The translations under genes were made by a program, and so were the position numbers. The notes beneath the pieces were generated by a model. It ran no database searches and was not told where the DNA came from. It saw nothing but the letters and a program-made list of their open reading frames with translations. Source: a virus. From it: DNA of 30,553 nt. Location: the IMG/VR virus record IMGVR_UViG_3300020578_000299, positions 1-30,553 of that record; one strand, written 5' to 3'. Position 1 is the stretch's first letter. Each line of letters begins with the position of its first letter. Shown here one piece after another: positions 1,857-25,688 of this stretch.

Positions 1857-2351
1857 ATGAAGATCCGCATGTCGCAGTTAAAGAAGTTGATCCGTGAGGC
1901 CGTCACGTCCCTCGCCTCGTCCCAGGGTTTCCGCGCCGCTGGGTTGGCCGCCGGTGGTCCGTATCGCCGAGAGATTCCGGTGTTCCGCGATCCCTGGGCC
2001 CTCACCCAGCGCGTCGTCGACGGCGCCGACTATGAGCTGCTCTTTGACACGCTGCGGCAGATGCTCGCCGACGACGAGAAGTCGAATTACCTCGACGCGA
2101 GCCTCGTCGCGTACATCAAGAGGTTCATCGGCGTGTATGAGAAGATATCCGGAGGCCTGACGAGCGGCGACCACAAGATCACCGCCGCCGCGACCGACAG
2201 GATCCTCGAGACCGGCATCGCCGGCCTGTACGACGCCGGATCCCCTCGGCGCGAGGCCCTCGACATGTTCGGCCTCGTCGAGAAGCTGGGTCCTGAGGCC
2301 CTCCAGCAACTCGCCCTCGCCCCTCGGTCTCCGTCGTTTCCAGGTGCCTGA
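1857..2351 (+). CDS. Tagged hypothetical protein (N-terminal SQLKKLIREAV peptide)
   Basis: 164 residues from ATG 1857. A longer frame reaches back to 1791, but the ATG at 1857 starts with MKIRMSQLKKLIREAV, matching the start of other proteins here such as MKITVSQLRRLIREVL at 11329, so this start is preferred. The remainder is a soluble, mainly helical protein with no motif I recognise. It opens a cluster whose stop overlaps the next gene. A promoter-like GAGTGTAATACATAT lies at 1806-1820. By analogy with capsid-targeting peptides of T4 internal proteins the tag may direct it into the virion; this is inference. Confidence 0.7.
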   Translation: MKIRMSQLKKLIREAVTSLASSQGFRAAGLAAGGPYRREIPVFRDPWALTQRVVDGADYELLFDTLRQMLADDEKSNYLDASLVAYIKRFIGVYEKISGGLTSGDHKITAAATDRILETGIAGLYDAGSPRREALDMFGLVEKLGPEALQQLALAPRSPSFPGA

Positions 2352-2855: not shown

Positions 2856-4379
2856 ATGTTTGATGCATCCAGCATTCTTGATCCGTGGTCGGCCGGTTTT
2901 ATCGAAGACTTTGTCAGAGAGTTTCGCGACGACGTCGCCGACGTCCTGCGGATCCGGTCCGAGCTGCGGCGCGATCCCCGGGGTTACATCGCGGCGGTGG
3001 CCGGTCTGCCGGTGTCACGAGCCGCGGCGGACCCGCGGTGGCGTGTCGATCCTCCCCCACCTGACCTGCTCGATCGCCGCGTCGAGATCACGGGTCCTGC
3101 CGTCGATGCGAAGATGGTCGTGACGGCCGCCGGTTCCGGCGCGTGTGGCTACATGATAGACGGCGAAGATTCGTTGTCTCCGACGTGGGCCGGCGTCCTC
3201 GCGACGCATGCCAATACGATTTCCCTTGTCCGTGGAGCCCTGCAGGCCCCCACCCGAACCTTGCCTGTCCTGCACTACCGTCCCCGGGGCCTGCACCTTG
3301 TCGAAAACAACTGGCTCGTCGACGGTGAGCCCGTCCCGGCGTGCCTCTTCGACGCCGGGATGTTCCTGTACCACAACGCTCGGGAGCTGCTCGCCCGAGG
3401 CAGCGGGCCCTACCTGTACATCCCGAAGCTTGAGCTTGAGGGTGAGGCGCGGTTCTGGCACCGTGCCTTGACGTGGTGCGAGGTGATGCTGCGGATTCCG
3501 CCTGGGTCGATCCGCTGCACGGTCCTCATCGAGACGCTGCCCGGCCTCGTCCGAGCCGAGTCGATACTGTGGGTCTTGCGGACGCGCGTGACGGGCCTCA
3601 ACGTTGGGCGGTGGGACTACATATTTTCTTGTATCAAGTCTCTGCGGCACGTGGGCTATGTGCTGCCTGATCGACAGGAGCTTGTGATGACGTCTCCGGA
3701 GCTGGCCGAGGCTGCTCGTTGGGTCGTCAATGTCGCTCACCGGCGCGGATGCCATGCGATCGGCGGTATGGCCGCCGCCGTTCCGAGCCGGCGCGATCCT
3801 GCCGCCGCGGGAGCGGCGCTCACGGCCGTCGCGCGCGACAAGGTTAGAGAAGCCGAAGGTGGGCACGATGGAACCTGGGTCGCTCATCCCGACCTCGTTC
3901 CGATCGCCGCGGCGGCTTTCGGTGGAGTGCTGCGGGATCGTGTCGAGCAGCGTCACGTCGTTCCTGGTGCTCCGTGTCTTGATCTCGACCTCGCGGTGCG
4001 GCCCCTTCGGGGCCGAGTGACGTGGGATGGTGTGGCCTCGGCGGCGCGAAGCGCCGTGGTGTATGTCGATGCCTGGCTGCGAGGGACGGGGTGTGTCGCG
4101 ATGGCCGGGCAGATGGAGGACGCCGCGACGGCCGAGATCAGCCGGGCTCTGCTGTGGCAGTGGGTCGCCGCCGGGGCCGTGCTCGACGATGGAACGCGTG
4201 TGACACGAGAGCTTGTGGACGCCGTCGTGCGGGGTGAAGCAGCGGCGCTTGGCGGCGCGGGAACTGAGCCCCGCCCCGAGGCTGTACAGCTCGTCCTTGA
4301 TTCAATATTGACGCCAGACATCCCGGAATTTATCACGACGCTTGGGTATCCCATCCTTTTAAAAATGTCGTCTAAATAA
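2856..4379 (+). CDS. aceB: Malate synthase A (glyoxylate cycle), phage-borne
   Basis: Malate synthase condenses glyoxylate with acetyl-CoA to malate. From ATG 2856 the protein is 507 residues, close to the roughly 530 of bacterial type A enzymes. Diagnostic blocks are in order: YRPRGLHL (catalytic Arg144), ELLARGSGPYLYIPK, VLIETLPG (Glu226), GLNVGRWDYIFS (Asp254), HRRGCHAIGGMAAAVP, GHDGTWVAHPDLVP and EDAATAEISR (Asp422, catalytic base position). All active-site residues are kept and there is no frameshift, so activity is likely. The frame extends upstream to 2565, but that part overlaps the tagged gene and has no family match. No isocitrate lyase is in the window. It lies 43 nt after a tagged phage protein, which argues for residence in the phage genome. 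Confidence 0.95.
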   Translation: MFDASSILDPWSAGFIEDFVREFRDDVADVLRIRSELRRDPRGYIAAVAGLPVSRAAADPRWRVDPPPPDLLDRRVEITGPAVDAKMVVTAAGSGACGYMIDGEDSLSPTWAGVLATHANTISLVRGALQAPTRTLPVLHYRPRGLHLVENNWLVDGEPVPACLFDAGMFLYHNARELLARGSGPYLYIPKLELEGEARFWHRALTWCEVMLRIPPGSIRCTVLIETLPGLVRAESILWVLRTRVTGLNVGRWDYIFSCIKSLRHVGYVLPDRQELVMTSPELAEAARWVVNVAHRRGCHAIGGMAAAVPSRRDPAAAGAALTAVARDKVREAEGGHDGTWVAHPDLVPIAAAAFGGVLRDRVEQRHVVPGAPCLDLDLAVRPLRGRVTWDGVASAARSAVVYVDAWLRGTGCVAMAGQMEDAATAEISRALLWQWVAAGAVLDDGTRVTRELVDAVVRGEAAALGGAGTEPRPEAVQLVLDSILTPDIPEFITTLGYPILLKMSSK

Positions 4380-4498: not shown

Positions 4499-5050
4499 AT
4501 GTCGTACGTAACGATGCGGATCTTTACGAGGATTTTGGAAGAGGGTTCCAAGAGTTCCGAGATCCACGTTTTTGATTTCGATGATACGTTGGTTCGGACA
4601 AATTCTCGTATATACGTGACCCACGCAGACGGATCCAGTAGCACGATGAATCCGCGCGAGTATGCTGCATATCGGCGGCATCCCAACGACATTTTTGATT
4701 ATTCTGATTTTGAGCAAGTGATCGAACCGATCCTCATGACGGGTACGTTCCTTCGTTTGAAAAGATCGATCTCTGAGGTCGGTGAAAACAACGTTTTTAT
4801 ACTGACTGCCCGGGGCAATCCGGATCCGGTTGCAGAATACATGAGCAGTGTTGGTGTCGATGGTATCAGAGTCTTTGCGACTGGAACGAGCGACCCTCGA
4901 GCGAAGGCCCAAGTTATCCGAAATGAAGTGCTTTCTCGCGCCATTCGGCGCGTATATTTTTACGACGATGCGGCAAAAAACATCGACGCAGTTCGAAACC
5001 TGAGAAAAAGTATGCCGGGTGTCGACATAATTACAGTACGAATGAAGTAG
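4499..5050 (+). CDS. HAD-superfamily phosphatase with tag-like N-terminus
   Basis: 183 residues. HAD motif I is FDFDDTLVRT at residues 25-34 (nucleophile Asp26, Asp28), motif II is FILTARG and motif IV is YFYDDAAKN. Such enzymes hydrolyse phosphate esters; phage members are often assigned to nucleotide or polynucleotide 3'-phosphate removal, but the substrate here is unknown. ATG 4514 (residue 6) would start MRIFTRILEEG, resembling the terminal tag family; 4499 is the longer choice. A TTATACTTAG element sits at 4484-4493. A/T-richer codons than malate synthase mark a composition change at about 4380. Confidence 0.8.
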   Translation: MSYVTMRIFTRILEEGSKSSEIHVFDFDDTLVRTNSRIYVTHADGSSSTMNPREYAAYRRHPNDIFDYSDFEQVIEPILMTGTFLRLKRSISEVGENNVFILTARGNPDPVAEYMSSVGVDGIRVFATGTSDPRAKAQVIRNEVLSRAIRRVYFYDDAAKNIDAVRNLRKSMPGVDIITVRMK

Positions 5051-5071: not shown

Positions 5072-6325
5072 ATGCAACCAATCATCATCACGACAGTCGT
5101 TCGAAATCCGATGACTTTACCTCTTTTGTTGAGCTTGACAGACAAATTTGTCGAACGTGGGCTATTGACGAAGTTGAGGGTAGTCGATGAAACTCCTGGC
5201 GCTGCTGGAACGATTGCCGTGAGGAGTTTGGTCCCAGTGGACGGCGTCACGAATAAGAGGCAGGTCGTTGTCGACTATTCTAAGATTCGACAGAAAGATC
5301 CTCGAGCCTACATTTCGACCGGACTGACTGGGTATCATTACAAGACGACCGGTTTCAACTTGGTACAAGGTGGAGACCCTGTGGTTGTGGCTGTCCGAGG
5401 GTCACACGGCGGGAGCGTATGGGTTTCTTCTGGGGGTCGTGGTGCCGGTGGAGTCGAAGTTGTCATGAACGGTTCCGGTTGTTTCATTCGTACGGGGCGC
5501 GGCGGCGGAGATAAGTTGTCTGAAATTCCAGATTCCGGTGTCGTCGATGGCGGAACCGGATGGAGGACTGTCGAGCTAGCGTTGGCTGGTGGTGAATTTA
5601 TTGCGACTCTAGACACAGGAGCGCACCTCAAGTGCGGTGTAGGTTTTGGCGCTTCTGTCGTCGGTGTAAATATATCTTCTTCCCCTGTTGGGATCTCCGA
5701 CATCGTCGCAACGTCCTTGTCCGTCGGCTCTTTAGGACCTGATGTTGATCGTAGCTACGCTCGTTACTACAAGAGTCGACCTCCTGCAGATGAGTCTGGC
5801 TTTGAGTTAGTCTCCAACAATGATATCGTATACATAGATCCTGTTGGCTGGGAAAACTTGTTTGAATCCGGCGTCATATTGGCTGTAGGAGATGCTGCTC
5901 ACTTGCCCGCGGTACGTCGGGCTGGTATCGTGAAGTTTGGAACGTCTGATCACGAAAGTTTTCTAGATCGTTCTTTTCGTTGCACGGCCCGCGTCGAGCA
6001 GCTGTGGGCAGACAACATCTCTTTTAATATCGAGAGCGGGACCCATGTACTGAAGAATGGAAGCAGAATCGTTTCTGGTCCGCCTGTTCTTATGTGCGTC
6101 CTTGAAGCTTCACGAGTCGACAACCTAGAGGTCATAAAGCGTTATTCATCTCTACTTGAGTCCGGTCCCGTCGGCGAGCCTCTAGATCCGGCGGCGGATG
6201 ACGTTATCGCTTACTTTGATTCTATTCTCACAGGCCCTAAAGCAGATGAATTCCTCATAGAGCTCGTAGAAAGTTTGAACCAGCGGCAAAAAAGTCGTTT
6301 GGTCGAACTGCTTTCAAGAAGCTGA
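5072..6325 (+). CDS. Hypothetical protein, 417 residues, possible virion component
   Basis: The gene starts 21 nt after the HAD gene, on the same strand and likely the same transcript. The protein has an N-terminal alpha/beta-looking part (to about residue 95), a Gly/Val-rich beta-looking middle (about 105-215) and a helical end, LVESLNQRQKSRLVELLSRS. No catalytic motif is visible and I do not recognise the family. The Gly-rich beta pattern is compatible with a structural protein. Its last 12 bases overlap the end of the convergent gene at 6314-6958. Confidence 0.65.
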   Translation: MQPIIITTVVRNPMTLPLLLSLTDKFVERGLLTKLRVVDETPGAAGTIAVRSLVPVDGVTNKRQVVVDYSKIRQKDPRAYISTGLTGYHYKTTGFNLVQGGDPVVVAVRGSHGGSVWVSSGGRGAGGVEVVMNGSGCFIRTGRGGGDKLSEIPDSGVVDGGTGWRTVELALAGGEFIATLDTGAHLKCGVGFGASVVGVNISSSPVGISDIVATSLSVGSLGPDVDRSYARYYKSRPPADESGFELVSNNDIVYIDPVGWENLFESGVILAVGDAAHLPAVRRAGIVKFGTSDHESFLDRSFRCTARVEQLWADNISFNIESGTHVLKNGSRIVSGPPVLMCVLEASRVDNLEVIKRYSSLLESGPVGEPLDPAADDVIAYFDSILTGPKADEFLIELVESLNQRQKSRLVELLSRS

Positions 6326-6958
6326 GAAAAAAGTTGTAGTTGTTCGTGGAGAGAACCCGACGTTCTTCAGCGTAAGAGCGTTGATGAACGGTGGTGCTGT
6401 GTCGCCTGAGCCGATCTGGACATCGACTGTTGATGACGGAGCGATAAAGTTTCCTGTTACGACTATAAACTCATTTTCGTACAGATCGATGCTGACGTCG
6501 GGTGGAGACAGCAATATCTGTTTAGACGTTTTTAGTCTTCCGCTTCCAGCAAAAACCAGCTTGATTTCGTATATGCTGTCTGCGGAAAGAGCATCGATTG
6601 ACAATCGTAGAAATTCTTCGGGAGGCAGCCGCGGCGCCCAGGCGCCTGTCGAAGAGATCGTTCTTAGGTTTAGATCTTCTGTCGTAAAATCAGGGGAATT
6701 AAAAAGGGATCCACAAACGATCGGCGACCGCCGTCCGTTTGAAGTAGTTAGCTTTAAATCGTTAGAAAATTTGTAGTTTATGAACTCTAGACCGTTGACG
6801 ATAAGGGAGTGCTGCGGTTGTCCAAAGATGTATGCTCTCTGTTCTGTTCCGTCAGCTATGTCACCTGAGGATTGTACGGAAACGATGGAGTTCCATTCAA
6901 CGGACAACATCCTTTTGAATTTAAATCCACCGCCGTCTCCTTTTTTTCGAAATCGCAT
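6314..6958 (-). CDS. Hypothetical protein, 214 residues, beta-rich
   Basis: An unrecognised protein read from 6958 leftwards. The first 15 residues are basic and Gly-rich (MRFRKKGDGGGFKFKR), and a later Met-17 (MLSVEWNS) is an alternative start; both ATGs have AAGG immediately before them and neither has ideal spacing. The rest alternates hydrophobic strands with Ser/Thr/Gly turns, as in phage decoration or fibre-related proteins. An AATACTTAATC element precedes it. A virion role is only a guess. Confidence 0.6.
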   Translation of the reverse strand: MRFRKKGDGGGFKFKRMLSVEWNSIVSVQSSGDIADGTEQRAYIFGQPQHSLIVNGLEFINYKFSNDLKLTTSNGRRSPIVCGSLFNSPDFTTEDLNLRTISSTGAWAPRLPPEEFLRLSIDALSADSIYEIKLVFAGSGRLKTSKQILLSPPDVSIDLYENEFIVVTGNFIAPSSTVDVQIGSGDTAPPFINALTLKNVGFSPRTTTTFFSAS

Positions 6959-7085: not shown

Positions 7086-7487
7086 TTAATTCTTTTTAGG
7101 TTTCGATGTCACCTTTTCGGCTTTTTCGATAGCATCTTCCTTAGGGAGGCCAGAAGCCATCATCCTGGATGCCATGACATCTGCGAAGTCAGCTTTTCCG
7201 TCTCCTGTGACGTCATTCTTTTTTGACTTCTTTTTTGATTCTTCACCGGAGGTTTTTATCTCGATGATCACGTCGCGAATGATCCTACGCAGTTCTGATA
7301 ATTGTAGTTCCATGGTATTTTCTTCTACGCCTTCTGCTTCTATCGCAGCGATTTGTCCTTGAGCACGTTTTCTGGACGTGTGACATGCTCTGTGCTTCTT
7401 TCCTTTCTTGTCTGTATATGACAAGACGTAAGAGCCTCTCTTTCCGCTCGATTGTTTGCACTTTTGTTTTCGAACCGTGTAAGGCAT
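7086..7487 (-). CDS. Modular small virion-like protein with internal tag and Asp-rich motif
   Basis: 133 residues in three pieces. Residues 1-53 are a basic, Cys/Lys-rich module (MPYTVRKQKCKQSSGKRGSY) of a kind seen repeatedly in large-phage proteins. Residues 59-75 are a tag-like helix, LQLSELRRIIRDVIIE, beginning with a Met that could be an internal start at 7313. Residues 92-104 hold DVTGDGKADFADV, an EF-hand or dockerin-like Asp/Gly loop, followed by an Ala/Met helix and a Lys-rich tail. No clear ribosome-binding site precedes Met-59, so one fused protein is more likely than two. It shares a unit with the 7545-7751 gene and ends before a strong terminator. Confidence 0.7.
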   Translation of the reverse strand: MPYTVRKQKCKQSSGKRGSYVLSYTDKKGKKHRACHTSRKRAQGQIAAIEAEGVEENTMELQLSELRRIIRDVIIEIKTSGEESKKKSKKNDVTGDGKADFADVMASRMMASGLPKEDAIEKAEKVTSKPKKN

Positions 7488-8410: not shown

Positions 8411-8433
8411 GTTGTTATCCTTATATCCTGTTT

Positions 8434-8458
8434 CACCAAAGCTGGTGATTGAACACCA
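8434..8458 (-). promoter_or_regulatory. Mutually exclusive hairpins between speD and the lipoprotein gene
   Basis: Read on the minus strand, TGGTG (8458-8454), CACCA (8447-8443) and TGGTG (8438-8434) follow each other, so the central CACCA can pair with either neighbour but not both. It sits in the 78-nt gap between the speD stop and the lipoprotein start. An attenuator or processing site is possible. Confidence 0.25.
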
Positions 8459-8488
8459 ATCTATACTAATAAAGTGAATGTTTACACG

Positions 8489-8887
8489 CTACGTAGCATT
8501 GTTAGGAAAAGTTCTGTTTACGACCGTGCAATCGCCGGCGACAACGCCCAACAAATCCCAAATAATTTTTTTCGCTTTGTCAGAATCGAAGTCCTTACAA
8601 GAGAATACGTCCATTGAAAAGCATTTACGAATTGGCCAACAGTGTATGGACATATGCGAAGTCGAAATGACGCACATTCCCGTGATCCCGCCTTCGTCTT
8701 GAAAGATATCGGACTGGAGTTTTGAGGCGTCTAGCGGCACTTCCAAAAAGTCTGGTCCCATTATTATCTTCATTTCCAGCGATTCTGCAAGCTTTTTGAA
8801 TATAGCTGTGAGGTCGACACTGTTGAACGCAGCTGGATCGTTGACAAACCCATCAAGGATTACGTGAATTCCCGCAGAATTTTTCAT
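8489..8887 (-). CDS. speD: S-adenosylmethionine decarboxylase, pyruvoyl-dependent (SpeD-like)
   Basis: AdoMet decarboxylase makes the aminopropyl donor for spermidine; its pyruvoyl cofactor arises by self-cleavage before a Ser. The 132-residue protein matches the short bacterial form. Around STSHMSIHCWP and SMDVFSC it has Ser77, His82 and Cys97, exactly the +5 and +20 spacing of Ser63, His68 and Cys83 in the Thermotoga enzyme. The usual Glu before the processing Ser (ESH) is Thr76 here, and TWPE is CWPI. These are changes near the active site, so altered substrate use or poor processing is possible. A strong AGGAG precedes ATG 8887. No other polyamine gene is in the window. Confidence 0.88.
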   Translation of the reverse strand: MKNSAGIHVILDGFVNDPAAFNSVDLTAIFKKLAESLEMKIIMGPDFLEVPLDASKLQSDIFQDEGGITGMCVISTSHMSIHCWPIRKCFSMDVFSCKDFDSDKAKKIIWDLLGVVAGDCTVVNRTFPNNAT

Positions 8888-9111: not shown

Positions 9112-9516
9112 TCATTTTCCTTTTAAAATCTTGGAAACTGGTTTTCTAGACCATAGACGACAGCTCCAGTAGGCCGCTTTTGTCCTATCCGAGGCCCTTG
9201 GAGTGCCGCAACCGTGTCGTGCCCTGAACGACTTACGTGCCTTCGGGTTATCTCTACGAATTTCCATGTTTGGATCGCCAAACCCTACCTTTTTTACATT
9301 TCCTGTTTTCGGGTCCTTGACGTAAACTTTGTATTTTTTCACGTCACCCTTCATAGGCTTTCCTAATTGAACTTTTCTTCCTTTGTACTCGGCCTCGATC
9401 AAAACGGACTCTTGTATCGTTTCCAAATCAAGTTCAAATTGGTCCAACACGCCCAAACGTGCCAACATGATTCCTTCGGTTATGATTTCTTTTAGTATAG
9501 AGGGAGTGATTTGCAT
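9112..9516 (-). CDS. Tagged virion-like protein with conserved KKYKVYVKDPKTGNVKKVGF module
   Basis: From ATG 9516 the protein is 134 residues; the longer frame begins with TTG at 9537 and is less likely because ATG 9516 gives the tag-like start MQITPSILKEIITEGIML. The middle (about residues 43-70) reads as beta strands (KVQLGKPMKGDVKKYKVYV). The end, SFRARHGCGTPRASDRTKAA followed by YWSCRLW, has two Cys and many Arg. I have seen this C-terminal module attached to varied partners in marine and jumbo phages, usually as presumed structural proteins; its function is unknown to me. It is divergent from the nuclease gene. Confidence 0.75.
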   Translation of the reverse strand: MQITPSILKEIITEGIMLARLGVLDQFELDLETIQESVLIEAEYKGRKVQLGKPMKGDVKKYKVYVKDPKTGNVKKVGFGDPNMEIRRDNPKARKSFRARHGCGTPRASDRTKAAYWSCRLWSRKPVSKILKGK

Positions 9517-9557
9517 GCGTTTAAATATAGGCTTCAATCGGCGTTTAAAGTTGCTTC

Positions 9558-12766: not shown

Positions 12767-12961
12767 ATGCCAACATATGAATATGGATGCAGCATTTGTA
12801 ATGTGGAATTTGAAGTTCAACAATCCATTAAAGAAGAAAAAGGCGCAGAGTGTCCACGATGCAAAGTGTTTACTTGCAACAGGTTAATCTCAAAAGGGAC
12901 TTCCTTTTCTTTAAAAGGCGCGGGATGGGCTGCAGATAATTATTCAAAAACCTCTAATTAA
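12767..12961 (+). CDS. FmdB-type zinc-ribbon protein
   Basis: 64 residues. MPTYEYGCSICNVEFEVQQS and ECPRCK supply two CxxC pairs for one zinc, then the FmdB-typical ISKGTSFSLKGAGWAADNYS. This family is small and often annotated as a putative regulator; its function is not settled. GAAAGGA upstream gives the ribosome-binding site, 27 nt after the previous gene. Its stop overlaps the convergent endolysin stop by 4 bases. Confidence 0.88.
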   Translation: MPTYEYGCSICNVEFEVQQSIKEEKGAECPRCKVFTCNRLISKGTSFSLKGAGWAADNYSKTSN

Positions 12962-13650
12962 CTTTTTCTCAGAGATTCTAGCAGCTCTTCTGGTAATTCA
13001 ACTTTTGGATTTGTTCCAGTTTGAATATTTTTGCTCTTTGCAAAATCCAAAAGTGCCTGGGATGTTCGTGGTCCCCAGATACCATCAATTTTTGCAGAAT
13101 ATAAGCCTAGATTAAATAGCTTGTTTTGAGCTTCAATAAGCAAAGGTTTTGTCCATGGAATCATTTTCATTACGGTTCCAGAGTTTTCAGTTTGTTTCAT
13201 AAACAGCTGACTTTCTGACTTTCTTCTATTAAGAAGTCCTTGGTTGGTTTTCATGACACCACCGACTCGGAACTTGCACCATTCTTGCAATCTACTTGGA
13301 ACTTCTGAAAAGTTACCCGAATTTACGGCTTTTTGAACTCCTGTATTGATGATTCCACCTTCGCCTGTATTAAAAACGAAGCTGACTAGTGCGTCAAACT
13401 GGTTTTGGTTAAGTACCACAGAAATATGCTTTTTTACCGCAGATTCGAATCTTTCAACATCCTTGGCTAAGATTTCCATCGCTTGTTCTTTTGTGACCGT
13501 CGTGTAATTTTCTCCCGGTAGTATTACATGACCCACACCAATTGTCGGCTTACCAGCGGGACAATTATAACGATTGAGCATCAAACCTTCCCACTTCGTG
13601 ATGTGCTCAAGTCCTTCTTGCGATGTCTTCAAGTGATCGTTAATTCCCAT
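12958..13650 (-). CDS. Endolysin: GH24 lysozyme plus peptidoglycan-binding domain
   Basis: 230 residues. It hydrolyses the glycan strands of peptidoglycan at lysis. The GH24 motif EGLMLNRYNCPAGKPTIG holds catalytic Glu, Cys at E+9 in place of the T4-type Asp (a known variant triad), and Thr at E+15, followed by VGH. QNQFDALVSFVFNTG is also GH24-typical. From about residue 165, AQNKLFNLGLYSAKIDGIWG is a PG_binding_1-type repeat. No signal peptide, so a holin should be needed. An AAGGTG site precedes ATG 13650. Confidence 0.92.
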   Translation of the reverse strand: MGINDHLKTSQEGLEHITKWEGLMLNRYNCPAGKPTIGVGHVILPGENYTTVTKEQAMEILAKDVERFESAVKKHISVVLNQNQFDALVSFVFNTGEGGIINTGVQKAVNSGNFSEVPSRLQEWCKFRVGGVMKTNQGLLNRRKSESQLFMKQTENSGTVMKMIPWTKPLLIEAQNKLFNLGLYSAKIDGIWGPRTSQALLDFAKSKNIQTGTNPKVELPEELLESLRKS

Positions 13651-14714: not shown

Positions 14715-15503
14715 ATGCTGGAAAATTCATCTAAGACAGTGGTGTCAAGCTACTTAAACTCGCTGCAAGCCTATCCGCAGCTCGAGCATGAGGAGTTGAT
14801 CCAGCTATTTCAAGATTATGAAAAAGGTGGAAAAGACTCGATCACTGCGCGTCAAAAACTCGCGCAGTCTAACCTACGACTTGTTGTTTACATTGCAAAG
14901 AAGCAAAAAGGACACAATATTCCAATTGAAGACCTTATCCAAGAAGGAAACATCGGTCTTCTTAAGGCGATCGATCGATTCGATTGGAAGAAAGGTTTTC
15001 GTTTTTCAACTTACGCGACGTGGTGGATTAAACAAGCAATTAGTCAGTACGTCCTTAAGAGGAAAAAGATAATTCGGTTACCGGCGCATGCGGCTTCTGC
15101 ACAAAAGAAATTAATTCAAGCTGCTGATTCTTTCAAGGAAACGAATGGATACGGACCGTCATCTGAAGAATTGTCGGCAATGATAGATGTATCTGAGACT
15201 GTCATCAAAGCAACGATGCAGTCAGGAAAAAACATCATTTCTCTGCAGCAACCTATCGGTGACGATGGAGCTTCTACCCTAGAAGATCGTTTGGAAGATT
15301 CAAACCCGTCCAACGATCCTTTTGAGCTGTTGTCTAAAAAAGAAATGATGGAAATTGTAAAACGCGTTATGTCCAATCTTTCTACAAAAGAAGCGGCCAT
15401 TCTTCGGTTGCGATTCGGTCTTCACGAAGATATTTCTGTTGAAGACTACGTTATCACTGACGCAGAAGCAGAGCAAATTTCTTCAGGCGAAGGACTGGCT
15501 TGA
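14715..15503 (+). CDS. Sigma-70 family factor lacking region 4.2
   Basis: 262 residues. Region 1.2-like at about 13-40; region 2 at about 45-125 is intact, with QSNLRLVVYIAKKQKGHNIP, EDLIQEGNIGLLKAIDRFDW and RFSTYATWWIKQAISQYVLK. Region 3 follows (about 135-195). Region 4 begins as LSTKEAAILRLRFGLHED at 222-239 but then diverges to VEDYVITDAEAEQISSGEGL and stops; the helix-turn-helix that binds the -35 is absent. Other frames downstream do not encode it, so a recent frameshift is unlikely. It should direct host RNA polymerase to phage promoters through -10 contacts. The HTH protein at 15725 may complete it. Confidence 0.9.
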   Translation: MLENSSKTVVSSYLNSLQAYPQLEHEELIQLFQDYEKGGKDSITARQKLAQSNLRLVVYIAKKQKGHNIPIEDLIQEGNIGLLKAIDRFDWKKGFRFSTYATWWIKQAISQYVLKRKKIIRLPAHAASAQKKLIQAADSFKETNGYGPSSEELSAMIDVSETVIKATMQSGKNIISLQQPIGDDGASTLEDRLEDSNPSNDPFELLSKKEMMEIVKRVMSNLSTKEAAILRLRFGLHEDISVEDYVITDAEAEQISSGEGLA

Positions 15504-15504
15504 A

Positions 15505-15723
15505 ATGCAAGTCGCCATCATCTTACTTTTATTCTTGAACATTTTAGTTACAGTTTTTTTGAATAAAAAAATTAGCGATCGTCTAAATTCTTTGAAGTTG
15601 GATGAAAAAAATGAAACCTTCCAACGAGGCGAAAAAGATATACACACGATTTTGAGTGATAGATTGTTCGATATTCAAAACCGAAAGTACTCGGTGCAAC
15701 AAAGATTTAGAGATAGAGATTAA
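15505..15723 (+). CDS. Small single-pass membrane protein
   Basis: 72 residues from ATG 15505, just after the sigma stop; the longer frame from 15439 lies over the sigma gene. One N-terminal transmembrane helix (VAIILLLFLNILVTVFL), then a charged segment likely helical or coiled (LNSLKLDEKNETFQRGEKDI). A GGCGAAGGACTGG stretch may be the ribosome-binding site. The layout resembles an inner-membrane spanin or holin-accessory protein but is not diagnostic. Confidence 0.6.
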   Translation: MQVAIILLLFLNILVTVFLNKKISDRLNSLKLDEKNETFQRGEKDIHTILSDRLFDIQNRKYSVQQRFRDRD

Positions 15724-15724
15724 A

Positions 15725-16018
15725 ATGGTTCTTAAGAAAGGTTCAAAATTCTTGAAAGGTTATGCAACAGTCATCGAGGATGAAGGTGTTAATTACAGAG
15801 AGATCGCAGACATCATGTCTGAGATTGGGTTCATTATGAACCACTCTTCCGCAAGAAACTATATTTTGCGGATAATGCAAAAATTTGCAGAAGAATTTGA
15901 TACAGAATGGGGTCTGGATCTACCAGAAGAAAAGATCAAGGCTATCGCCGCTTCCCCACAATTTCAAAATGTGATTGCTGACCTGCTACATAATTTAGAA
16001 GCGACAAGAAAAAATTAA
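15725..16018 (+). CDS. Small HTH protein, candidate detached sigma region 4
   Basis: 97 residues from ATG 15725, the A of the ATG following one base after the previous stop; the longer frame from 15656 is rejected. Residues 22-56 (VNYREIADIMSEIGFIMNHS, then SARNYILRIMQKFAEEF) read as a helix-turn-helix like sigma region 4: EIA-type helix, turn, then a recognition helix with conserved Arg and Ile. The C-terminal 30 residues are an amphipathic helix pair. It lies two genes after a sigma factor that lacks this region, so a split sigma is inferred. A simple phage transcription regulator is the alternative. Confidence 0.65.
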   Translation: MVLKKGSKFLKGYATVIEDEGVNYREIADIMSEIGFIMNHSSARNYILRIMQKFAEEFDTEWGLDLPEEKIKAIAASPQFQNVIADLLHNLEATRKN

Positions 16019-16020
16019 AC

Positions 16021-16539
16021 ATGTCAAAATTCACAATTAAAAAATTACCACCAATTAAGCTCGTCGACCTCCTGAAAAAAAGGAAAACAAACCTAAAGCA
16101 GTTTCTTGAAACTTATGGTATCGTTGCGTACTCTACGTTACAACAAAAGTGCAATAGTCTCGGTGTGTCTCCACCATCAGAACAAGAGTTTAAAGAAAAC
16201 GTCAAATCTGCCATTTCTTCACCCCAAGAAGGCGTCGTTGTTTTAGACCCACCACCTCTGGTCAAGGAAGCAACGGGCGAATTTATCTTGGTTGATGACC
16301 TAGGGAATTCGCACGTAATGCACGAAAGAAATGTTTTACGTGAAGCTGAGGAAGAGCAACCAAAAGCTTCAAAAAAAAACAAAGAAAAAAGTCTAAAAAT
16401 AGATGAAAGCGTGTTTGTAGTTTCTCTTCCAGCTGAAAATTTTGAAAAAACCGGTCCTGATTTAGGGGAAGCCGTAAGCGTTGACGATGATTTAGATTCC
16501 TCAGTAACGAAACTTTCAACTTTGAAAAAAACAAAATAG
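16021..16539 (+). CDS. Hypothetical protein, 172 residues, acidic C-terminus
   Basis: Starts 2 nt after the HTH gene. Residues 10-58 form a compact helical domain (KLVDLLKKRKTNLKQFLETY, then GIVAYSTLQQKCNSLGVSPP) that resembles a small DNA- or protein-binding domain. After residue 70 it is low-complexity and acidic or lysine-rich. Co-transcription with the HTH and sigma genes suggests a transcription or replication role, but nothing more specific can be said. Confidence 0.65.
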   Translation: MSKFTIKKLPPIKLVDLLKKRKTNLKQFLETYGIVAYSTLQQKCNSLGVSPPSEQEFKENVKSAISSPQEGVVVLDPPPLVKEATGEFILVDDLGNSHVMHERNVLREAEEEQPKASKKNKEKSLKIDESVFVVSLPAENFEKTGPDLGEAVSVDDDLDSSVTKLSTLKKTK

Positions 16540-16542
16540 GTC

Positions 16543-16573
16543 GGTGCAAAGCAGCTGGTTGTTATGATAAACT
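16543..16573 (+). promoter_or_regulatory. Phage-class promoter, site D (DNA ligase)
   Basis: GGTGCAA at 16543-16549, an 18-nt gap, then TGA-TAAACT with the -10 at 16568-16573. An ATG begins directly at 16574, and a second ATG at 16580 lies 7 nt after the -10, where transcription should start. Confidence 0.7.
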
Positions 16574-16579
16574 ATGAAC

Positions 16580-17914
16580 ATGCAATCCGTCATCGACATC
16601 CTGGAACAGCTCGAGGCCAACAATTCTCGTCTATTTAAAGAGGAACTTCTTGAGTCGCAGGTCACTAACGACCTCCTCAAGAAGGTCTTCGTGGTCGCTG
16701 GCGATCCGTACCTCAACTTCTACGTCAACAAGTTCAAGATGCCCCTGGCGACGTCGCGCCGGCGCACCGATGATACGATCGTCGGCGACTTCATCGGTTT
16801 CATCAAGGAACGACTGTCGACCCGGGCGCTGACCGGAAACGCCGCGAAAGATGCAGTCATCGGCGAATTTACGAAGATGGACGAGCGCCAACAGAAGTGG
16901 TGTCAGAGGATCCTCCTGAAGAACCTCCGGTGTGGCGTCCAATCCACCACGGTCAACAAGGTGTGGCCCGGTGCAATCGTTGGATTCTCGGTTCAACTAG
17001 CCGAGACCCTAGAGACTCGGTACGAGGACGGTAAGGGAATCATCATCTGCGAACCTGTCATGTACCCGACGTGGGTCGAACCGAAGCTCGACGGTCTCCG
17101 GTGCGTGGCCGTGAAACATTCCGGTGAGGTGACTATGTTCACCCGCAACGGTACCGTACTCGAGACCCTACCTCGGATCAAGTCTCTCCTCGAGGCGGCT
17201 CCGTGGGACGAGTTCATCCTCGATGGTGAGGTCATGGGTGAAACGTGGAATGACTCTGCGTCTGTTGTGATGTCCCATAAGAAAGGTAAGGACGACTCGA
17301 AAATGATCTTCCACGTCTTCGATGCTCTTCCGTTTTCTGATTGGCATGACCAAGAAAGTCATTTGGATCTTGAAGACAGGTTAGAGCTTGTTAAAGAGCT
17401 GGTCTCAAAAATTGGAGACCCTGTTGTCGCTCAAGTTCAAGGTAGACTCATCAAGGATCAAGAAGAGCTACTAACCGCATACCTACATGACACCGACGCC
17501 GGTTACGAAGGTATCATGGTGAAAGACTTGGTGGCTCCGTACCTCTTTAAAAGGTCTTCAAATATTCGTAAGATGAAACCTATCGCGACTTACGAAGGAG
17601 TTATCGTAGGTCACTATGAAGGCCGGAGAGGCTCCAAACGTGAGGGCTTGTGGGGTGGCTTTGAGGTCGTCCTGCCGAATGGTGTGGTGACTCGAGTGGC
17701 CGGTGGATTTACTGATAAGCTGAAGGCCGATATCAACATCGATCCGGATTCATGGATTGGACGAATCATCGAGATGGAAGGTCAACCTGATCCTCTTACA
17801 GGAGACGGATTGACGAAAGATGGTAAGGTTAGGTTCCCTGTCTACATTCGTGCACGTGATCCTAGGGATGTTGATCAGAAAGTCGTTGCTGCTGGTCAAG
17901 CTTATCGGGGATGA
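16580..17914 (+). CDS. ATP-dependent DNA ligase
   Basis: 444 residues from ATG 16580 (446 from 16574). It seals nicks through an AMP-lysine intermediate. Motif I is EPKLDGLRC (Lys about 169), then EVTMFTRNG, FILDGEVMGE, IFHVFDALPF, YEGIMVKDL and a KRSSNIRKMKP motif V. The N-terminal about 150 residues are a helical DNA-binding region as in T4-type ligases. I chose 16580 because 16574 abuts the -10 of promoter site D and could not be in the transcript. Codons change at about 17300 from C/G-ending to A/T-ending, suggesting a mosaic gene. Confidence 0.95.
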   Translation: MQSVIDILEQLEANNSRLFKEELLESQVTNDLLKKVFVVAGDPYLNFYVNKFKMPLATSRRRTDDTIVGDFIGFIKERLSTRALTGNAAKDAVIGEFTKMDERQQKWCQRILLKNLRCGVQSTTVNKVWPGAIVGFSVQLAETLETRYEDGKGIIICEPVMYPTWVEPKLDGLRCVAVKHSGEVTMFTRNGTVLETLPRIKSLLEAAPWDEFILDGEVMGETWNDSASVVMSHKKGKDDSKMIFHVFDALPFSDWHDQESHLDLEDRLELVKELVSKIGDPVVAQVQGRLIKDQEELLTAYLHDTDAGYEGIMVKDLVAPYLFKRSSNIRKMKPIATYEGVIVGHYEGRRGSKREGLWGGFEVVLPNGVVTRVAGGFTDKLKADINIDPDSWIGRIIEMEGQPDPLTGDGLTKDGKVRFPVYIRARDPRDVDQKVVAAGQAYRG

Positions 17915-18296: not shown

Positions 18297-20540
18297 ATGG
18301 CTATTTCAAAAATTCAACAATCTCAGGTCAGCGGTTCACTTTCTTTTAACGATGGACTTGAGGCGGGCCCTAGCCTCGCCGGTAAGGCGACATTGAAGGG
18401 CGACCTCGACTCGCTTCGTTCACAGATCAAAAAAATCATCGGTAAGTCAAACTGGTACGATGCTCTCGACGGTACACAAGACCTCGCGGACATCTACACT
18501 GCGGTGCGCGTCTCCGGCGCGGACACTGTCTTCCAAGGCGACATCGAAGTCGGCGGAAACGACATCAAGTCTTCCGGCGGCACTGTCGCGATCACACTCG
18601 ACAACGCAAACGTTTCTATCCTCGGCGCCGCTAGCGTTAACGGTAACCACCACGTCGGTGGTGGTTATGGCAACACAGGCGTCACCTTGTACTCCGACGG
18701 TAACCTCTCCATGGACGGCGCGCTCCTCGTCAAGGGCAATGCTAGCTTCGACGGCAACGTCGCGATCGGTGATGATCAGCAAGATCGCGTAACCTTTCTC
18801 GCGAAGGCCGCTTCTGACCTCAACATGGATGAATATAAGGTAACAAAGCTCGGTCAGGCAGCTGCTTCTGGTGAAGCTCTTGCCTGGGGTAAGGACGCTG
18901 CTGTCTCTGACCTCATCGTCACAGGTGGTGACTTCCAAGTTACCGCCGGTGGTACAGTTTTAGCCGCCAACATGACGCTCGGTGGAACACTCACTGTCGG
19001 TGGAAACTCAACGCTCGCGAGCGTTGAGATCGGTGACACCCTCGGCGTCGCAGGTGCAGTGATGCTTGGCAGCACGCTGTCAGTCGCTGGTGCATCTACA
19101 CTTTCATCACTCGGCGTTACAAACAACGCAACAGTCGGTGGAACGCTCGGCGTTATGGGAGCTTCTACGCTTTCATCCGTCAGCGTCACCGGCAACGCCG
19201 GCGTCGGCGGAACCCTCAGCGTTGTGGGTCATTCAACCCTCAGCACATTCGAGGCTTCTGGTCTCGCTGAGCTTATGGGTGGAGTGGATGTCAATGGATT
19301 TGCATCGATCTCTGCGGCAGGCGACGCGATCTTCGCATCGCTCGACGTCGCCGGTGCCGCCGATTTTGACGGCGCAGTGACAGCAGCTTCCATTGCAATC
19401 GACGGCGATGTGGCACAACGTCTCTACTTCGTTGGAGCCGATGGTTCGATCACTGACAACGCAGCGCTCAACTGGGATATCGCGGCTTCGCGCCTCGACG
19501 TCACCGGTTCGCTCGACGTCTCTGACGACCTCCGCGTTCGCGACGACGCTCTTATCGACGGGGTACTCGACGTTGTCGGGCTCGCTTCGCTCGATGGTGG
19601 CATCGACGTCAACGGCGCGAAGTTCACGGTTTCTTCCGCCGGCGCAATGTACGTCGACGGCGCAGCGCAGATCCATGGCGCTGCAACTTTCGACAGCAGC
19701 TTGACGGTTACGGGAGCCTCAGACCTCAACGGATCTCTCGACGTGCAAGGTGCAGCAAGATTCCAGAGCAATGTTGTGGTCGATGGCAACGCTCAAATCC
19801 ATGGCGACCTTCTCGTTCAGGGCGCGTTCACCTACATCGAAACCACAAACATGAAGGTAAAGGATGCATTCATCTACCTTGCAACAGGATCTAACGGATC
19901 AGTCGATTCCGGTATCGTCTTCAGCAAGGGAGCTGACAGCGGAACCAAGGACCTCATACTCGGTCAAGACGGCGGCGTAGGAGAATTTATCTTCGCGCAG
20001 CAGGTCCACAACCCCGACGCAGATTCACCATCTGACCTCAACAATGCCGTCCTCGTTCCGGCCTGGATGTCTATTTCGAAGTACGGTGTTTCGGAAGGCA
20101 ACGAGGCTGGCAGAGTCGGTATGGATGATGGTGCTTTTGCAGTCAAGGGCGCCAACGCACTTCTTCTCAAGTCAGGAGCCGAGTCTTTCTCACTCGCTTC
20201 CGCGGGCGAGCAGACGACCTTCGACGGAAACTTTACTGCGTCAACCCTCGTCGGCGCTCTCAACGAGCTCTACACCGACCTCCAGGCGGCCTCAGCCGGT
20301 GGAAACCTCTCGAAGGCTTCTTACGGCGTGGCAGACTTCGCAGGAAACGTCCTCAGCTTCTCTGGTCAGCAAACCCTCGCGTCTGCAGACCACAAGCTCG
20401 TCGACGTCTTCCTTAACGGTGTTCTCATGTCCCCAGGACGCGACCTCACCGCAATCACAACCACATCCGTGACATTCGACGCTTCGATCGTCAGCGCTCT
20501 CATAGCCGATGACGTCATCGTCATCGTCGCTCGTGGCTGA
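18297..20540 (+). CDS. Large repeat-built tail-fibre or structural protein
   Basis: 747 residues. The middle is made of short beta-strand repeats of about 23 residues with a GGTL-V-G-STLSS pattern (for example LSVAGASTLSSLGVTNNATV), best seen about nt 18980-19280, and similar LDV-G/DG repeats flank them. This is the pattern of beta-helical fibres or adhesins. The C-terminus, FLNGVLMSPGRDL to VIVIVARG, is a small cap module also present at the end of the 21250-21906 protein. Codons are strongly G/C-ending, unlike the fibres on the other strand. No signal peptide. A strong terminator follows. Confidence 0.85.
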   Translation: MAISKIQQSQVSGSLSFNDGLEAGPSLAGKATLKGDLDSLRSQIKKIIGKSNWYDALDGTQDLADIYTAVRVSGADTVFQGDIEVGGNDIKSSGGTVAITLDNANVSILGAASVNGNHHVGGGYGNTGVTLYSDGNLSMDGALLVKGNASFDGNVAIGDDQQDRVTFLAKAASDLNMDEYKVTKLGQAAASGEALAWGKDAAVSDLIVTGGDFQVTAGGTVLAANMTLGGTLTVGGNSTLASVEIGDTLGVAGAVMLGSTLSVAGASTLSSLGVTNNATVGGTLGVMGASTLSSVSVTGNAGVGGTLSVVGHSTLSTFEASGLAELMGGVDVNGFASISAAGDAIFASLDVAGAADFDGAVTAASIAIDGDVAQRLYFVGADGSITDNAALNWDIAASRLDVTGSLDVSDDLRVRDDALIDGVLDVVGLASLDGGIDVNGAKFTVSSAGAMYVDGAAQIHGAATFDSSLTVTGASDLNGSLDVQGAARFQSNVVVDGNAQIHGDLLVQGAFTYIETTNMKVKDAFIYLATGSNGSVDSGIVFSKGADSGTKDLILGQDGGVGEFIFAQQVHNPDADSPSDLNNAVLVPAWMSISKYGVSEGNEAGRVGMDDGAFAVKGANALLLKSGAESFSLASAGEQTTFDGNFTASTLVGALNELYTDLQAASAGGNLSKASYGVADFAGNVLSFSGQQTLASADHKLVDVFLNGVLMSPGRDLTAITTTSVTFDASIVSALIADDVIVIVARG

Positions 20541-21929: not shown

Positions 21930-23330
21930 TTACGCCTTTATCTCGGTCATTTCGATCGTAACGGTTCCCTTCAAAGATCCAGTGATATCAAATGTCGCCG
22001 GTGAGACGGCATCGATATAAAAAGACAGGTCTGAGTTGTAAGGCATGACCGAACCGCTTGATACAATTTCGAGGCTGTAAGTTAGGGCATCGGGCATCGC
22101 CAAGGTAGAGTTTAGGTCCAATACAGAAACCGAGCCGGCTGATTTGTACACAAGAGCGTCTGTCACAAACGCAAAAGAATCTAGAGAGTTAGCTGAATCT
22201 ACAATCGCGGCGGTGGCATGGACTGTATACGTCTTTCCGTCCTCTAGGTTTAAAAACTGTGTAAGACTTCCGCTGGCGTCGTAACCCTTAAATAGCAGAC
22301 TCTCATCACCGTTTGAGGCCTGGCCGGCCCAAACCAGCCTAGAATACTGCGAAGATCCTAAAGTGTTTCCAAAGTACGTACCTGCCAACCCGCTGCTAGC
22401 TTGTGCGTACTGGCCTGTTCTTGATGCATCGGCGAAGATACCTTCCGCAGTTGAAGCCAAACCTGTCGCTTCAGACCCATAACCTCTTGCAGTTGAACCT
22501 GTATGGTACAGACTACCGCTATGATACACGTGACCGGTGCTAGAATTTGCGAAGTAGACGTAGTCGTTGGATCCTGCTTTCTGCAAAAACAAAGATCCAG
22601 TCGTTATCTTAGTAGACCCGCTAATTTCTAACATATCTCCGAAGAAGCCATCGCTGCTTGTCATATTGATGCTGCCACTGACTACGACGTCGCCATCAAA
22701 CAATGATCGATTGGCTACCGATCCCGTGGCACCCTGCGTCGCGCGGGATCCACTGACATAAAAATAAACATCAGAAGCGATGGTAGAGGTAAAATCTCCT
22801 CCTATGGAAATGGAGTCTTGCGTCTTCATTTGTCCGCCAGATCCAGAGACGATCCAATCGTTTCCTCTGTCAAAAAGGACCCACGTCTGCGATCCTCCTA
22901 GAGTGACGTTTTTTGTAGAGAGTATCCACTTAGAACCCTCATTCGCGGTACCACCTTCGACGTAGACTGTAGCACCACATGTCAATGTAGTACCTGGGAT
23001 CGCGTCGTCGGTACGAGCCCATGTGTTCGTTCCTGTATTAACGATGTATATGCCGTTCTGCGAAGTGGTAGACTGATTTTTTAATAAAATTCTATCATCA
23101 TTGCTGAGAGTATTCATCGCACCATCGATGGCCTGCGTCGCGCTGCCCGGAGGCAGAGTTACGCTACCTGTCGAAGCATATTGAACCGATTCTTTCCAGT
23201 CTAGTGTTGTCACATTTACATCGCTTTCTGCTAGCGTAACATTGAGTGTGATAGGATCTGGTAGACGCTGGACGAAACCGTAGACTTTTCTAGCTCTCTG
23301 TCTATCATTGATGATTTTTTTGCCGGACAT
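21930..23330 (-). CDS. Tail-fibre or tail-spike protein
   Basis: 466 residues. Residues about 1-165 include the phage-tail domain pattern TTLDWKESVQYASTG, NDDRILLKNQSTTSQNGIYI and SKWILSTKNVTLGGSQTWVL, usually an attachment domain. Then come the shared DVYFYVSGSR / GDVVVSGS module, Gly/Ser/Thr-rich repeats and a jelly-roll-like C-terminus with IEM strand ends. A TGATAATTAAATC element about 70 nt upstream is the likely promoter on this strand. Host-range determinant is inferred from family, not shown. Confidence 0.85.
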   Translation of the reverse strand: MSGKKIINDRQRARKVYGFVQRLPDPITLNVTLAESDVNVTTLDWKESVQYASTGSVTLPPGSATQAIDGAMNTLSNDDRILLKNQSTTSQNGIYIVNTGTNTWARTDDAIPGTTLTCGATVYVEGGTANEGSKWILSTKNVTLGGSQTWVLFDRGNDWIVSGSGGQMKTQDSISIGGDFTSTIASDVYFYVSGSRATQGATGSVANRSLFDGDVVVSGSINMTSSDGFFGDMLEISGSTKITTGSLFLQKAGSNDYVYFANSSTGHVYHSGSLYHTGSTARGYGSEATGLASTAEGIFADASRTGQYAQASSGLAGTYFGNTLGSSQYSRLVWAGQASNGDESLLFKGYDASGSLTQFLNLEDGKTYTVHATAAIVDSANSLDSFAFVTDALVYKSAGSVSVLDLNSTLAMPDALTYSLEIVSSGSVMPYNSDLSFYIDAVSPATFDITGSLKGTVTIEMTEIKA

Positions 23331-24166: not shown

Positions 24167-24643
24167 ATGAAAGATGAATCTTTAAAAGTAATTCGAAGGT
24201 TTACAAAAGAGACAGGCTACGATTTTTTATCTAATTTTTATCCGTGCACTGTAAGGTTTGAAGGACAGTTGTATCCCACGGTTGAACATGCATATCAGGC
24301 GGCAAAGTCGGTGGATTTTAACGTTCGAAAAATAATTCTTAACGCTAAAAGTCCAGCGGAGGCAAAAAAGCTTGGCCAAGGAATCAAGATAAGGGATGAT
24401 TGGGATCTCGTGAAAGTTGATATCATGAGAACTTTAATCACGGAAAAATTTCAAAATCCTTTTTTGAGCCATCGGTTGATCGCGACCAACAGCGCTCAGT
24501 TAGTGTTGGATAATAAATGGAACGACAAGTTTTGGGGAGTTTGTCGAGGTGCTGGAGAAAACTGGCTTGGTAAAATTTTGATGGAAGTTAGAGAAAAAAT
24601 TAAAAAAGAATTAGAAGACGACGGGCATATACAGCCTTCATAG
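24167..24643 (+). CDS. NADAR (YbiA/DUF1768) family protein
   Basis: 158 residues matching the NADAR fold: LSNFYPCTVRFEG, LYPTVEHAYQAAKS (conserved Glu-His), DKFWGVCRGAGENWLGKILM. Family members act on ADP-ribose-containing compounds; some remove ADP-ribose from guanine in DNA, and others (YbiA) act on riboflavin intermediates. In a phage, reversal of host ADP-ribosylating defence is an attractive inference, but the substrate cannot be read from the sequence. First of three or four same-strand genes. Confidence 0.9.
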   Translation: MKDESLKVIRRFTKETGYDFLSNFYPCTVRFEGQLYPTVEHAYQAAKSVDFNVRKIILNAKSPAEAKKLGQGIKIRDDWDLVKVDIMRTLITEKFQNPFLSHRLIATNSAQLVLDNKWNDKFWGVCRGAGENWLGKILMEVREKIKKELEDDGHIQPS

Positions 24644-24672
24644 ATGTTGTAAAAATTAGACTACTTACGCAC

Positions 24673-25059
24673 ATGAAGAACGTAAAGCAGGTCATTGTTT
24701 TTCGTAAAGATATTAAGCTTCGCAGGGGGAAATTGGCCAGCCTAGCATCTCAAGCGTCCGCAAAGTTTATGTTTGAAAACAATGAGGCTGACAGGGGAGA
24801 CGAGCTGCGCGTCAGATTGTCGCAAGAAGAGGTACAATGGATCAAAGAATCCTTTCCAAAGTCAGTCTTAGGTATCGATTCCGCCGAAGAGCTGTCTGAT
24901 CTCGCGTTTCGAGCAGAGCTGCTTGGGATTAGCGTGTATTCGGTCTTTGATGAAAAAATCACAAAAGCCGACAGAAACGCATATCCTGTTTGCGTGGCGT
25001 TAGGTCCAGATAACGAAGAGTTGATTAACCAAATCATTGGGCACTTAAAGTCCATTTAA
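24673..25059 (+). CDS. Peptidyl-tRNA hydrolase, Pth2 type
   Basis: 128 residues. KQVIVFRKDIKLRRGKLASL followed by ASQASAKF matches the Pth2 signature (V-R-D, GK-A-Q-H-A). The protein ends LGPDNEELINQIIGHLKSI, the usual Pth2 finish. Pth2 releases tRNA from stalled peptidyl-tRNA. The Gln-His of the consensus is Ser-Gln here, and a charged insert follows at about 33-60, so it is somewhat diverged. It lies 29 nt after the NADAR gene. Confidence 0.8.
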   Translation: MKNVKQVIVFRKDIKLRRGKLASLASQASAKFMFENNEADRGDELRVRLSQEEVQWIKESFPKSVLGIDSAEELSDLAFRAELLGISVYSVFDEKITKADRNAYPVCVALGPDNEELINQIIGHLKSI

Positions 25060-25094
25060 ACGTTTATGTTTTCCTCGATGGTTATAAAATCGAA

Positions 25095-25688
25095 GTGAAC
25101 ATGAATGAACTACGGACAAAAGATTTCAACGACTTGATCGATCGTGACTATCAAATAGTACTGGCAGACCCACCCTGGAAGTATTACGGCGATCCAAACA
25201 AGAACCAGGCAGCCGGTAAGCACTATTCTATGATGTCATATGAAGAGCTAAAAGCCTTACCAGTCCGGTCTATCATGGCTAAAAAATCTATCATGTTTTG
25301 CTGGACGACGTCTTCAAAGATGGCAGAAACGTGCCGGCTTATAGAAGACTGGGGGTTGCACTACCGCGGAGTGTTTCAGGTTTGGGTAAAGACGAACTCT
25401 GAGGGTAAGGTCATCCATGGACAAGGAATTCGTCCATCCTTTACGAAGCCAACGGCAGAATATTTGCTCGTCGCATCAACAATGAAAGAAGGTAGAGCGT
25501 ACCCGCTATTGACAGAATCGATGCCTAACGTTGTCCTTTTAAAAAGGCCTGGAAATATTCATTCAAGGAAACCTTCGGAATTTAGAAAGAATATTACTGA
25601 CCTACTCGGAGACCTCAGAAAGGTTGAATTGTTTTCAAGAGAGTCGATAGAGGGCTGGGACGCTTGGGGGAATGAGGTTCCCACATGA
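25095..25688 (+). CDS. MT-A70 family N6-adenine methyltransferase
   Basis: 197 residues. DPPW at residues 25-28 is the catalytic motif, followed by YYGDPN and HYSMMSYEEL, then MFCWTTSSKM, VWVKTNSEG, TAEYLLVAST and RPGNIHSRKP of the MT-A70 class. These enzymes methylate adenine in DNA or RNA. Protection from host restriction or epigenetic control is inferred. A TTATAAAAT element precedes it. It overlaps the next gene by 4 bases (ATGA). Confidence 0.92.
   Translation: MNMNELRTKDFNDLIDRDYQIVLADPPWKYYGDPNKNQAAGKHYSMMSYEELKALPVRSIMAKKSIMFCWTTSSKMAETCRLIEDWGLHYRGVFQVWVKTNSEGKVIHGQGIRPSFTKPTAEYLLVASTMKEGRAYPLLTESMPNVVLLKRPGNIHSRKPSEFRKNITDLLGDLRKVELFSRESIEGWDAWGNEVPT

Follow-up and report, generated by a model that had tools for sequence, protein, structure and literature searches.

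Malate synthase (MS) is a cellular enzyme that converts two-carbon food into four-carbon building blocks, and in cells fed on C2 carbon the glyoxylate shunt sets the choice between burning that carbon and building with it. Hurwitz et al. (2013; PMC4053976) described viral-fraction genes for malate synthase and isocitrate lyase (ICL), aceAB, from Pacific Ocean viromes, and Nishimura et al. (2017; PMC5332604) found an aceBA operon in TARA_ERS478052_N000008, a T4-like virus of 179 kb from the sea. Malate synthase has been noted in giant eukaryotic viruses too (PMC9270025). The locus analyzed here lies in an IMG/VR record of 30,553 bases, referred to as the window at its full length, which holds an endolysin, an ATP-dependent phage DNA ligase, a sigma factor and repeat-rich fibre-like genes. 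As with TARA_ERS478052_N000008, MS is carried by a large virus with T4-type structural genes and a glyoxylate-shunt role is proposed, but MS and ICL form an operon there, whereas the window has MS alone, from a separate and diverged clade. The Pacific Ocean aceAB, for their part, are virome gene families and not a phage genome locus. The original prediction regarded glyoxylate-cycle enzymes as unusual phage cargo; this is right only in part, given the 2013 and 2017 reports and ∼50 further viral contigs. No report of the divergent clade was found in a literature search leaving out most subscription journals. New are the frequency with which viruses carry the shunt and, in very large phages, a divergent clade of MS that mostly lacks a linked ICL.

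The MS gene (positions 2856–4379, + strand) comprises 507 codons free of internal stops, and its ATG start codon occupies the same position as in relatives (MFDASSILDPWS / MIPYNNVIDPWS / MLSSSSIIDPWS). Both the TIM-barrel domain PF01274 (E = 3e-74; 249.6 bits against a gathering score of 26.4) and the C-terminal domain PF20659 (MS_C; E = 2e-26; 93 bits against 23.1) scored above their thresholds. In an alignment of 97 MS from phages and bacteria, E. coli AceB included, four residues were invariant wherever the column was covered: the catalytic Arg144 of the RPRG block (codon 3285–3287, +), Glu226 (3531–3533, +), which we take to be a Mg2+ ligand as in other malate synthases, the Mg2+ ligand Asp254 of the GRWDY block (3615–3617, +), and the catalytic base Asp422 of the MEDAATAE block (4119–4121, +). 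These are the catalytic residues named in the original prediction, and its claim of a complete enzyme was borne out by the two Pfam domains, the uninterrupted 507 amino acids and the predicted fold. The AlphaFold model (mean pLDDT 93.6, pTM 0.92) matched E. coli malate synthase A (3cuz) over its full length, with a TM score of 0.93 and an rmsd of 2.1 Å; isoform G matched clearly less well, and malate synthase A was the closest fold by far. The window gene encodes a complete malate synthase in a phage genome, and the enzyme is probably active.

The assignment to isoform A was upheld in part. The nearest solved structures by sequence are the malate synthases A of E. coli (3cuz) and B. anthracis (3cux), with which the window MS shares domain order, catalytic residues, fold and the lack of the isoform-G insert, and its length falls within the ∼500–540 amino acids of a full-length isoform A match. 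It is, however, phage-borne, only ∼36% identical to these enzymes, and scores 451.6 bits against TIGR01344 (malate synthase A equivalog), under the curated cut-off of 594.5, and was therefore not filed as an AceB equivalog. The enzyme is A-type in architecture, yet lies outside the curated TIGR01344 group. A PADLOC search gave no defence match for MS. Promoter and terminator scans around the gene returned no more matches than chance, and a late-promoter-like TAAATA motif also occurred at chance level.

Rescanning with an alignment of the clade itself raised its membership to seven viral records including the window. The other six (3300022752_005671, 3300044293_000906, 3300021376_005027, 3300011116_001261, 3300020204_003368 and 3300020578_006352) encode MS 57–60% identical to that of the window. 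No ICL was found in the window record (30.5 kb, a genome fragment), in G001 or in G002 (187 kb), and the recovered record lacks ICL in six of the seven clade members, where G002 is itself a fragment and the others are fragments of 7–34 kb. G012, which is collinear with nearly the whole window, has an intact ICL with the KKCGH motif ∼9 kb from MS; in the window the matching site, flanked by the tag9112 and o11924 homologues, is occupied by other genes. Because ICL is missing from the window and G002, both of them fragments, the phage-encoded shunt is incomplete in the known sequence.

A broader alignment scan yielded 58 viral MS loci, six of them from the window's clade and some of the remainder near-duplicates. 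Outside the clade, ∼50 viral contigs (L002, L003 and L126–L179) encode MS, and nearly all have an adjoining ICL. The MS of L002, L003 and L127–L179 are ∼40% identical to that of the window and form another clade, placed with the Pseudomonadota in the tree. Of 46 non-clade records searched, 44 contained ICL as well. The two without it have MS at the contig border: in one, MS stops fewer than 100 bases short of the end, and in the other it is truncated there. The two genes overlapped or were separated by at most 400 bases in 46 of the 49 loci measured. The gp23 gene was found in five of the non-clade MS records, and the phage status of the rest comes from the IMG/VR classification, for some also from neighbouring replication genes. 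Viruses thus seem to carry the glyoxylate shunt repeatedly as a module, and by no means only in the single published genome.

Considering gene content, conserved residues and location together, the window MS is likely to be an auxiliary metabolic gene that resides in the phage and encodes an active malate synthase. During infection, the phage enzyme would condense glyoxylate and acetyl-CoA to malate outside the host's control of its own aceB. The glyoxylate would be supplied by host isocitrate lyase, also by glycolate, glycine or purine breakdown, or alternatively by a phage ICL where one is present, as in G012. Malate could then pass to oxaloacetate and aspartate, and from these to the pyrimidines and amino acids needed by a very large phage, so that C4 compounds would be supplied with no carbon lost as CO2; the effect would be greatest where the host feeds on acetate, fatty acids or another C2 compound. 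Such a C4-supply role, as put forward in the original prediction, is plausible. IclR represses aceB in enterobacteria, and the phage probably carries a copy to escape host repression of aceB. A glyoxylate-shunt role is indicated by the MS and ICL pair of other viruses and the intact ICL of the collinear G012. The recurrence of shunt enzymes in phages, together with a deeply diverged MS that uncultured giant phages retain at one fixed place, suggests that in some environments the conversion of acetyl-CoA to C4 acids is an established strategy of infection and not a lone curiosity. The viral MS set also supplies enzymes that can be assayed and an opening to find out which hosts depend on the shunt.

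The enzyme might instead act alone on glyoxylate from glycolate, glycine or the purine breakdown of host DNA and RNA, mainly removing glyoxylate (or a related 2-oxoacid) or relieving acetyl-CoA pressure and not running the shunt. The ICL-free records of most clade members, the 187-kb G002 among them, speak for this reading, but the records other than G002 are short, an intact ICL occurs in G012 and viral MS outside the clade almost always adjoin one, and we consider it unlikely. Less probable still, the protein could resemble malate synthase but catalyse another reaction, on a different 2-oxoacid or acyl-CoA. The clade MS sits on a long branch, scores below the TIGR01344 cut-off and has six clade-specific residues at sites conserved elsewhere in the 97-sequence alignment; among them, G103 replaces F and Q/K/R419 replaces L beside active-site blocks. 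With this divergence, altered kinetics or an altered substrate are conceivable; against a changed reaction, all catalytic residues are invariant and malate synthase A is the closest fold.

A phage auxiliary gene for malate synthase remains our preferred reading, and its ancestry was examined in trees of 88 and 97 sequences, built without the AceB sequence of TARA_ERS478052_N000008. The clade MS formed a single group with a support of 100, and no sampled bacterial sequence fell inside it, as judged by quick-method trees with a partial bacterial sample. This is the placement among phage and bacterial sequences that the original prediction had proposed; it revealed a separate viral clade and gave no support to the recent transfer suggested with it. 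Wider free trees keep the window's clade apart from the ICL-linked viral MS group, yet in the AU test the joining of both viral groups was not rejected (p 0.88), the joined tree being even better; a single viral origin is accordingly kept as a candidate. That the viral MS of both groups descend from one old virus-specific lineage, circulating among T4-type phages independently of cellular genes, with the window's clade now a stand-alone enzyme using host glyoxylate, is a tentative idea that we regard as less likely than not. Among 50,697 phage records no clade member was found; the only MS matches were two Salmonella records and one 1.7-kb contig, whose MS groups with Pseudomonadota AceB-type enzymes. 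None of 299 Pseudomonadota genomes scored like a member of the clade, and a viral structure library contained no malate synthase. One of the viral contigs, L146, encodes an MS that groups with a Bacillota (Melghirimyces) enzyme and not with other viral MS; this is either a separate acquisition or a misclassified contig.

The left neighbour of MS is a short phage protein with the N-terminal tag MSNRPDALLRKFIREV (2525–2812, +), which ends 43 nt upstream as had been noted; its homologues lie in L097 (5523–5744; 72%), in L096 beside MS (8431–8628; 60%) and in the 309-kb G015. To the right lies a HAD/polynucleotide-kinase-like phosphatase (4499–5050, +; phrog_415, 5e-5), with homologues of 46–57% identity in ten viral contigs and L097. 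A RadA/KaiC-like ATPase (271–1029, +) marks the phage group, being 75–88% identical in seven viral contigs, two of them ∼300 kb. Relatives were found by scans with two flanking proteins, the HAD-like protein on the low-GC side and the RadA-like protein on the high-GC side, and all window proteins were then compared with the viral contigs so obtained. In L085, L086 and L094, MS (58–60% identical) adjoins HAD, sigma and ligase, the HAD homologue lying just downstream of MS. L096 holds RadA, the tagged gene and MS (58–60%) together. G012 (34 kb), the full record behind L096, is 84% identical to the window in RadA, 60% in the tagged protein, 60% in MS, 78% in o8489, 51% in the endolysin (12958–13650, −; phrog_7, 3.7e-44), 57% in sigma and 64% in the ligase. 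On the low-GC side, a phage sigma factor gene, followed by two small genes and an ATP-dependent DNA ligase gene, forms a block (14715–17914, +; Sigma-70 domains; phrog_114, 2.5e-99) whose order recurs in L085, L086, L094 and G012. G002 carries MS, HAD, sigma and ligase together with the T4-type gp23 major capsid gene. A search for near-identical phage DNA gave no match, and the PF17289 terminase profile found nothing over its cut-off in 33 records. In three relatives a UvdE UV-damage endonuclease lies between HAD and sigma (L085 10603–11541, L086 4964–5902, L094 2644–3585), identified by a Pfam match for the L085 copy and by a near-identical start for the other two; none was seen at the corresponding place in the window.

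MS is thus set between phage genes in independent contigs, as expected for the location of an auxiliary metabolic gene. The GC drop from ∼65% to 50% at 4.4 kb might be read as a sign that the contig is chimeric, or that host DNA has been fused to phage sequence, at 2.8–4.4 kb, but this is so improbable as to be dismissed, since L085, L086, L094 and L096, from different metagenomes, share MS and its neighbours and G012 has the GC step at the same place. The two objections raised in advance by the original prediction therefore both fail: the gene order kept in independent, collinear contigs rules out a chimera at the step, and phage genes on both sides, with gp23 in the 187-kb relative, show that this is not host chromosome. 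Since MS occupies the same place in relatives from other metagenomes, it is, on the evidence of gene order, a genuine and fairly old phage gene, neither an assembly error nor a recent pick-up.

The GC content of the window is 60–66% up to 4.4 kb and 37–58% after. In line with the prediction, MS codons end in G or C more often (GC3 72%) than those of the next two genes (52 and 48%); the upstream phage genes, however, are as high or higher (RadA-like 93%, tag1851 84%, tag2525 76%), and the high GC is therefore a regional property. The recent transfer that had been read from it is unsupported, because the high-GC segment takes in these upstream genes too. Moreover, the phage MS form their own long-branched clade, and a scan of bacterial contigs for a recent host source gave at most 46% identity (44–46% at best, among the best 80 of 588 matches). 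In L085, L086 and L094, MS is richer in GC than the following genes, and in G012 the GC falls from 55–60% to 35–49% just after MS, an abrupt step at the same gene boundary in two phages. The step thus belongs to the phage group as a whole and does not mark a recent insertion.

The gene is also accessory, being present in some members and absent from others. In L097, the tag (5523–5744) and HAD (6438–6956) homologues are fewer than 700 bases apart with no MS between them, and MS is absent from G015 and G016, relatives of ∼300 kb that each carry gp23; MS therefore comes and goes at a conserved site. Within this group of very large phages of T4 type (gp23), the members that have MS keep it at a fixed locus.

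Other parts of the window gave minor observations. The long repeat-rich fibre-like proteins (26460–28688, −; 18297–20540, +; 21930–23330, −) are conserved only partly in relatives. Positions 24167–25688 encode consecutively a NADAR N-glycosidase, the peptidyl-tRNA hydrolase PTH2 and an MT-A70 adenine methyltransferase, and the NADAR and PTH2 pair is kept together in G002. Many small proteins begin with a tag such as MKIRMSQLKKLIREA, containing (L/I)xE, which is the T4 prohead-protease consensus. Tag sites were seen in the window (1857–1900, 2525–2570, 9112–9537 (−) and 7086–7487 (−)), L085 (5721), L181 (472 and 8376), L185 (2644 and 16895) and L189 (7613). Tags of this type occurred in 14 of 368 N-termini against 4 of 737 internal windows, a ∼sevenfold difference in an ORF set that includes spurious ORFs. 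By analogy with T4 internal proteins, these N-terminal tags may be capsid-targeting sequences of packaged, injected proteins.
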